In this document: positions 44,369-45,080 of the stretch, in pieces
Position numbering within the stretch: position 1 is the first letter of the stretch
How the letters are laid out: the number at the start of each line of letters is the position of its first letter
DNA from: Balneolaceae bacterium
GTDB taxonomy: Bacteria > Bacteroidota > Rhodothermia > Balneolales > Balneolaceae
Direction: 5' to 3'
NCBI GenBank assembly: GCA_017795005.1
Contig: CP051242.1
Location: forward strand, 496,001 to 560,000
DNA length: 64,000 nt
Position numbers and translations under genes: made by a program
The notes under the pieces: model-generated
Seen by the model: only the letters and a program-made list of their open reading frames with translations
The model's database searches: none
Told to the model about the DNA's origin: nothing

Positions 44369-44545
44369 TTTGTGAGTTATTGTCTCCCTCCTTGGGGAGG
44401 GACAGAGTCAAAACTTGTTTTGGCTCAGGGAGAGGACGGAAATGGCTCTATACTTATTACCTTCAGTGTCCTCCCTCTGAAATCCCGCAAGCGTGATTTC
44501 TGTCTCCCTCCAAAGGGAGACAGGGATGTTACTCATAAAACCCGT
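44369..44545. repeat. Dispersed palindromic repeat (TCTCCCTCC type)
   Basis: TGTGAGTTATTGTCTCCCTC on the left and GGGAGACAGGGATGTTACTC then ATAA on the right are inverted relatives. Inner words CCTTGGGGAGG and CCTCCAAAGGGAG form small hairpins. A related element starts at 52954. It fills the gap before rnpB. Confidence 0.6.
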
Positions 44546-44554
44546 ATCTTATTT

Positions 44555-45042
44555 GCAGGAAAGCCGGGTAATCGCTTCGTGCTTTGGTATGGGGAGGAAA
44601 GTCCGGACACCAACGAGCGCCGCGCTCAACGATCCTTCGGGCGAAGTTGAGGCTCGATTAGGGCGACCTGATCGGGATAGAAAGTGCAACAGAAAATAAA
44701 CCGCCTCCAGCGCGGAACGCTGGTGAAATTCCAAATGACAAGTATCAAATGAAAAACAAATCTCAATGTTTGAATATTTAAGCATTGGAGCTTGTTTGGA
44801 TTTTGAAATTTGAAGTATTGGTATTTCCCAACGCTCTGCGTTGGCGGTAAGGGTGAAAAGGTGAGGTAAGAGCTCACCGCTCTGAGGGTAACCGAAGAGG
44901 CATGGTAAACCTCGCGGGGTGCAAGCTCATGTAGGATGGTATGCGCTGCTTGTCGTGACGCCATCGGGTGGAGTGCACCAGATAAATGATTACCGAATCC
45001 CGCTTGCGGGAGGAACAAAATCCGGCTTATAGGCTTTCCTGC
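44555..45042 (+). ncRNA. rnpB: RNase P RNA, class A, with an insert
   Basis: The catalytic RNA that trims tRNA 5' ends. P1 pairs GCAGGAAAGCC (44555-44565) with GGCTTTCCTGC (45032-45042). Conserved core segments are present: GGGGAGGAAAGTCCGGACACC, AGAAAGTGCAACAGAAA, GGTAAGGGTGAAAAGG, GGTAAGAGCTCACCG, CATGGTAAACC and TGCACCAGATAAATGATTAC. The total of ~488 nt exceeds the usual ~350-400 because of a 138-nt palindrome in the P12 region. Its protein partner rnpA is at 56.6 kb. A TATCTTAT promoter-like word lies just upstream. Confidence 0.95.
44707..44844. repeat. Palindromic element inserted in RNase P RNA
   Basis: CCAGCGCGGAACGCTGG at the left end and CCAACGCTCTGCGTTGG at the right end are inverted relatives. 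Between them, AAATTCCAAATGACAAGTAT... on the left mirrors ...GAAGTATTGGTATTT on the right with mismatches, so the whole block can fold into one long arm. Confidence 0.75.
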
Positions 45043-45051
45043 TACAACATG

Positions 45052-45080
45052 AAAACCCCGTCCCAAAAGGTCGGGGTTTT
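45052..45080. terminator. Bidirectional terminator between rnpB and smpB
   Basis: AAAACCCCG (45052-45060) pairs with CGGGGTTTT (45072-45080). The A and T runs at either side allow use from both strands. Confidence 0.9.

Follow-up and report, generated by a model that had tools for sequence, protein, structure and literature searches.

The RNase P RNA gene (rnpB) of a Balneolaceae bacterium carries, in helix P12, a copy of an AT-rich palindrome that is dispersed elsewhere in the same genome, here placed between two 17-nt hairpins. On the best reading, this is a repeat of ancient origin that sits in a helix tolerant of it and has repeatedly been lost (or re-acquired). We consider it probable that an old copy of the dispersed palindrome was inserted into P12 in a common ancestor of, at the least, this lineage and Balneola, was inherited with rnpB, was lost in several lineages, and is tolerated as a peripheral, self-folding helix. 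The window, the whole stretch of DNA analysed, is 64,000 nt long and comes from genome G000, a single contig of 3.75 Mb from genus g1 of the family Balneolaceae. The rnpB genes of relatives were scanned in 92 Balneolaceae genomes, with g17 denoting Balneola, g4 a Gracilimonas-type genus and g10 a further genus.

The gene and the features that accompany it in the window are these:

44556..45045, plus strand: rnpB, RNase P RNA class A (RF00010), 490 nt; cmscan 216.3 bits, model positions 1-367
45052..45080, plus strand: probable rnpB terminator, an inverted repeat (I3) followed by a T run
44382..44437, plus strand: whalefall-1 element (RF01762), upstream of rnpB and outside the arm, the first member of an inverted pair; cmscan 73.8 bits
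44468..44523, minus strand: whalefall-1 element (RF01762), second of the pair, likewise upstream and outside the arm; cmscan 71.2 bits
56626..56967 (G000:C1:552626-552967), minus strand: rnpA, the RNase P protein and partner of the RNA; PF00825, E 4e-18

The match to RF00010 covers the full length of the model, with a score far above the gathering threshold of 100 bits, and the cmscan alignment has a single large insertion, located between the strands of P12. A search for tandem repeats in rnpB found none. Since rnpB is present in a single copy, with one RNase P RNA match genome-wide, and the window also encodes RnpA, we read the gene as the working RNase P RNA of G000, as far as sequence tells. 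The neighboring whalefall-1 elements belong to a type published as a noncoding RNA restricted to a whale-fall metagenome (PMC2864571). G000 has 54 copies above cut-off, mostly in inverted pairs about 86 bp apart, and it has the look of a dispersed Balneolaceae repeat of REP/BIME type, as opposed to one ncRNA gene.

The P12 region is laid out as follows:

44701..44847, plus strand: whole P12 arm with basal stem CCGCC / GGCGG; the Rfam alignment pairs the strands on either side of the insertion, as does the predicted fold
44707..44723, plus strand: left 17-nt hairpin CCAGCGCGGAACGCTGG, with the alternative of pairing to the right hairpin; from sequence, counterparts in 11 other species, and covariation
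44724..44827, plus strand: AT-rich palindromic core, belonging to a repeat family dispersed in Balneolaceae; from blastn and covariance model matches elsewhere in the genome and a locus-level similarity test
44828..44844, plus strand: right 17-nt hairpin CCAACGCTCTGCGTTGG; from sequence, with near-identical hairpins dispersed in the genome

The insert, 44707-44844, is thus read in order as a 17-nt hairpin, an AT-rich palindrome of about 100 nt, and a second 17-nt hairpin, and makes P12 longer by about 120 bases. The initial annotation had described a long imperfect inverted repeat in P12 that folds as an arm, and both points hold. The repeat lies between the P12 strands with the quoted 17-mers at both ends, and for the region 44700-44860 the predicted structure is a single long, imperfect arm (-62 kcal/mol, z -7.5; none of 200 dinucleotide shuffles does as well). 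Compared with an alternative fold into two local hairpins, the extended arm is favored in prediction by about 10 kcal/mol (-60.2 vs. -50.6). The same kind of arm appears in independent assemblies, including the record for Balneola sp. EhC07, which is not labelled as a MAG; this excludes assembly artefact as its source.

Independently of any model trained on the copies, blastn with the insert as query gives matches at four further sites in G000, with E-values from 6e-9 to 7e-5. A covariance model of the core, built from nine copies, identifies eight places in G000 including rnpB, that is, seven others, and has matches in 11 of the 15 genomes searched. The motif order common to the copies recurs at sites outside the set used to build the model, and the median z for all core copies folded is -3.4. 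Chance or plain AT-richness as the source of the core resemblance is ruled out by these blastn, fold and model results. A related proposal, that this is an ordinary long P12 with a chance likeness to AT-rich palindromes elsewhere, is highly improbable and disfavoured. P12 has no universally conserved nucleotides and is sometimes dispensable, as in cyanobacteria (PMC2858038), and AT-rich palindromes do look alike, but such a proposal must contend with blastn matches as strong as these in a 3.7 Mb genome, with the recurring motif order, and with congeners that have no arm. It was also the outcome that the initial annotation had set against its own reading, an arm with no other genomic copies and present in all relatives; copies exist, and the congeners are without it.

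The other core copies occupy intergenic sites, tRNA spacers among them, and many are found at the same site in several genera. One lies between what we take to be frr and smc in G000, G001, G018, G026 and G011 (L002, L164, L168, L173, L176), another after a presumed lysS in G000, G001, G011 and G005 (L161, L172, L178, L179), and a third adjoins a presumably peptidase-like gene in G000, G001 and G014, all of these labels being read off flanking sequence and not from a family search. This sharing of sites points to a palindrome family that is old and mostly static, inherited site by site. The AT-rich palindromes at the frr-smc and lysS sites keep their palindromic form across genera despite near-saturated sequence. 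Transposase domains of the Y1 (TnpA-REP) type occur at five places in G000 and are present in 12 of 12 genomes checked.

The 17-mer type of hairpin has a dispersal of its own. Allowing one mismatch, it occurs at 10 places in G000, both rnpB hairpins included, against 0 for a reversed-pattern control, and the near-identical hairpins often sit in two-hairpin intergenic elements; related 17-mer hairpins are also scattered in G001, G026 and others. One small element of this kind in G000 consists of CCAATGCTCTGCGTTGG and then a second hairpin such as GGTAACGACGCAGAGCATCGTTACC (L061-L064, near position 1500; compare window 44828-44844). Searched in 25 genomes, the exact hairpin-core-hairpin pattern matched rnpB only, as did the relaxed core-plus-hairpin pattern (up to 3 mismatches) searched in the 92 family genomes. 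Because near-identical hairpin-bounded units are seen at rnpB only, the 17-mers would not count as demonstrated ends of a dispersed or mobile unit. In G026 (L167), one core has CTAGCGCTTTGCGCTAG directly after it. Perfect hairpins abut core ends more often than they occur at nearby controls, whether the stem is at least 5 (17/88 ends vs. 24/352 controls, p 8e-4) or at least 7 (7/88 vs. 2/352, p 3e-4), and the sequences of these small hairpins are unrelated. The flanking hairpins of rnpB may come from a target hairpin, from the repeat itself, or from inverted duplication.

Among relatives, the length of rnpB differs even within the genus: 490 nt in G000 vs. 369 and 371 nt in the two congeners, which lack the insert and have short P12 helices of unrelated sequence. 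The rnpB genes of other families in the same order are about 362-393 nt long. The hairpin-core-hairpin layout occurs in 11 species besides G000, across g4, g10 and g17, with arm lengths that differ between genera. G005 and G014 have no full arm; their P12 has a solo hairpin, CAGCGCTCCGCGTTGG, that equals the left outer half and right outer half of the arm, joined. G078 and G079, both of g4, have short P12 helices identical to each other. Genera g1, g4, g10 (G026) and g17 have almost the same flanking hairpins, while the P12 helices of arm-free species are unrelated. In the P12 of G011 (L041), all four strands of both hairpins have changed together, from the AACGCTCTGCGTT type to the AATGCTTCGCATT type, a concerted change that points to gene conversion or to the unit having been replaced. 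A check for mobility found that one genus has both arm-bearing and short alleles of P12, but the unrelated sequences of the short helices obscure any empty site or target duplication.

The age of the arm was approached through normalised core similarity (fraction of maximum), which tells same-site from different-site pairs at short distance. The G000 rnpB core scores 0.50-0.58 against Balneola rnpB cores, vs. a mean of 0.26 and a maximum of 0.507 for 1390 different-locus core pairs. The Balneola rnpB cores are its nearest match, above any other copy. At the same genus distance, the frr-smc cores of G000 and G001 score 0.64 and 0.55 against Balneola G018. By this locus-level test the arms of G000 and Balneola are orthologous and have a common origin; the insertion is thus older than the split between g1 and Balneola, or it moved with P12. 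Patchy distribution as proof of repeated insertion was dropped for G000 and Balneola after the same test. Horizontal transfer of the whole rnpB gene is disfavoured, as the remainder of the gene, apart from P12, does not group species by whether they have the arm; identity there between G000 and its congener G001 is 0.857, and between G000 and Balneola G018 it is 0.836. Between genera (G011 left out), identity is 0.90 in the hairpin ends vs. 0.62 in the core.

These results refine the initial annotation, which had proposed a dispersed palindrome that landed in rnpB and expanded a catalytic RNA naturally. The expansion is right in outline, with a repeat-family core inside P12 of a gene that otherwise matches class A intact. 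Three checks it suggested, a genome search for other copies, a comparison of rnpB lengths across the genus, and alignment to a class A covariance model, gave the copy numbers, the lengths and the full RF00010 match with insertion confined to P12 reported above. Dispersal is shown for the AT-rich core; for the unit bounded by the 17-mers, the 92 genomes gave no near-identical example outside rnpB. Nor is a simple landing supported, as the orthology with Balneola cores indicates an old, patchily retained insertion, not a recent one.

The rnpB cores of g4 and g10 show similarity to others at or near background, and separate arrivals in these genera may have occurred. One alternative, possible but doubtful, generalizes this into recurrent insertion, with members of the repeat family entering a P12 hairpin separately in g1/g17, g10 and g4 and preferring small hairpins. 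Such a history gives the fewest changes on RpoB trees, where arm presence takes 6-8 unconstrained changes, or one gain and 11-13 losses. It accords with the excess of perfect small hairpins at core ends, with g4 and g10 cores that have no detectable orthology to others, and with G011 hairpin letters that differ in all four strands. It does not readily account for flanking hairpins that are nearly identical in four genera though arm-free P12 helices are unrelated, and the missing core similarity is uninformative, since sure same-site intergenic pairs also drop to background at larger distance.

Under the preferred reading of an old insertion, an AT-rich palindrome bounded by two small hairpins would have entered P12 in an ancestor common at least to Balneola, and the arm would have passed down together with rnpB. 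Several lineages would then have lost the arm, leaving a short P12 or one fused hairpin, and the solo hairpin of G005 and G014 would be the expected product of deleting the middle of the arm; in other genera, too, the direction of change is presumably loss. In favor count the P12 insert, its relatives, its patchy presence, the Balneola orthology, the otherwise intact class A match, and the partner RnpA. Against a single old insertion count the 11-13 losses required vs. 6-8 unconstrained changes, and also the identical short P12 of G078 and G079, which is more simply explained as the ancestral state than by two separate losses. The insert would be tolerated because the palindrome folds back on itself and extends only a peripheral helix, outside the catalytic core. 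The arm is probably neutral, and would be retained in the mature RNA.

An alignment of 11 of the 12 arms has 93.9% of cells pairing, and 9 pairs changed on both sides vs. 3.4 in shuffles; the local hairpins covary too, mostly through G011. Because intergenic core copies also keep palindromic pairing, the covariation in the arm does not prove selection on the RNA. A comparison for stronger folding of rnpB cores than of intergenic copies gave no clear difference (p 0.06, with non-independent rows). We regard as decidedly unlikely that the arm is selected for a function of its own, such as protein binding or stabilisation of RNase P. The greater conservation of hairpin ends than core, and a concerted change in G011 that preserves both extended and local hairpin pairing, would fit such a function, but the arm is missing from many close relatives, both congeners included, varies in length between genera, and in its core is not clearly more foldable than the intergenic copies.

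A further proposal concerns processing and is compatible with origin by old insertion. The arm may act like an intervening sequence (IVS), RNase III cutting and removing the long helix to leave RNase P RNA as two pieces that P12 keeps joined. We rate this as unlikely. It draws on the nature of the insertion, a stem-loop with extended pairing located in a variable helix of structural RNA, on a patchy distribution typical of IVSs, and on the removal of 23S IVSs by RNase III into pieces that stay functional (PMC4990558); the predicted arm helix, however, is frequently interrupted by small loops and has no long perfect duplex. If true, it would place a two-piece RNase P RNA in a lineage whose arm-bearing and arm-free species are directly comparable. 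More broadly, the case documents how insertion and deletion of a repeat lengthen and shorten a peripheral helix of a catalytic RNA, and close relatives between them have the full arm, the solo hairpin and the short P12. This makes it possible to test, in cultured bacteria such as Balneola, whether an extended P12 is tolerated and whether RNase P RNA is fragmented.

Several known systems invite comparison. Rickettsia palindromic elements are dispersed palindromes of roughly 100-150 nt found inside genes, mainly protein genes of Rickettsia; compared by description only, they resemble the rnpB arm in size, palindromic form and location inside a gene. The IVSs of 23S rRNA are likewise stem-loops that interrupt a helix of an essential RNA where insertion is tolerated, and related bacteria have them patchily (PMC4990558); they differ in lying in rRNA and in having a demonstrated excision by RNase III. 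The Coxiella IVS, in further contrast, carries an ORF. REP/BIME repeats with TnpA-REP transposases offer a parallel in their small dispersed hairpins, often in inverted pairs, and in the Y1 domains of G000, although the Balneolaceae core is longer and AT-rich. In the literature searched, we found no earlier report of palindromes inside rnpB. STRR repeats reportedly lengthen P12 in cyanobacterial rnpB. They are described from heterocyst-forming cyanobacteria (Vioque 1997, as cited in PMC2858038), and, as with the arm, a repeat dispersed in the genome sits within rnpB. Cyanobacterial STRRs are short tandem direct repeats, whereas the Balneolaceae arm is one long hairpin-bounded palindrome, in another phylum. 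STRR-expanded rnpB is the closest precedent: repeat-expanded rnpB was already known, and the hairpin-bounded palindrome is a variant of it.
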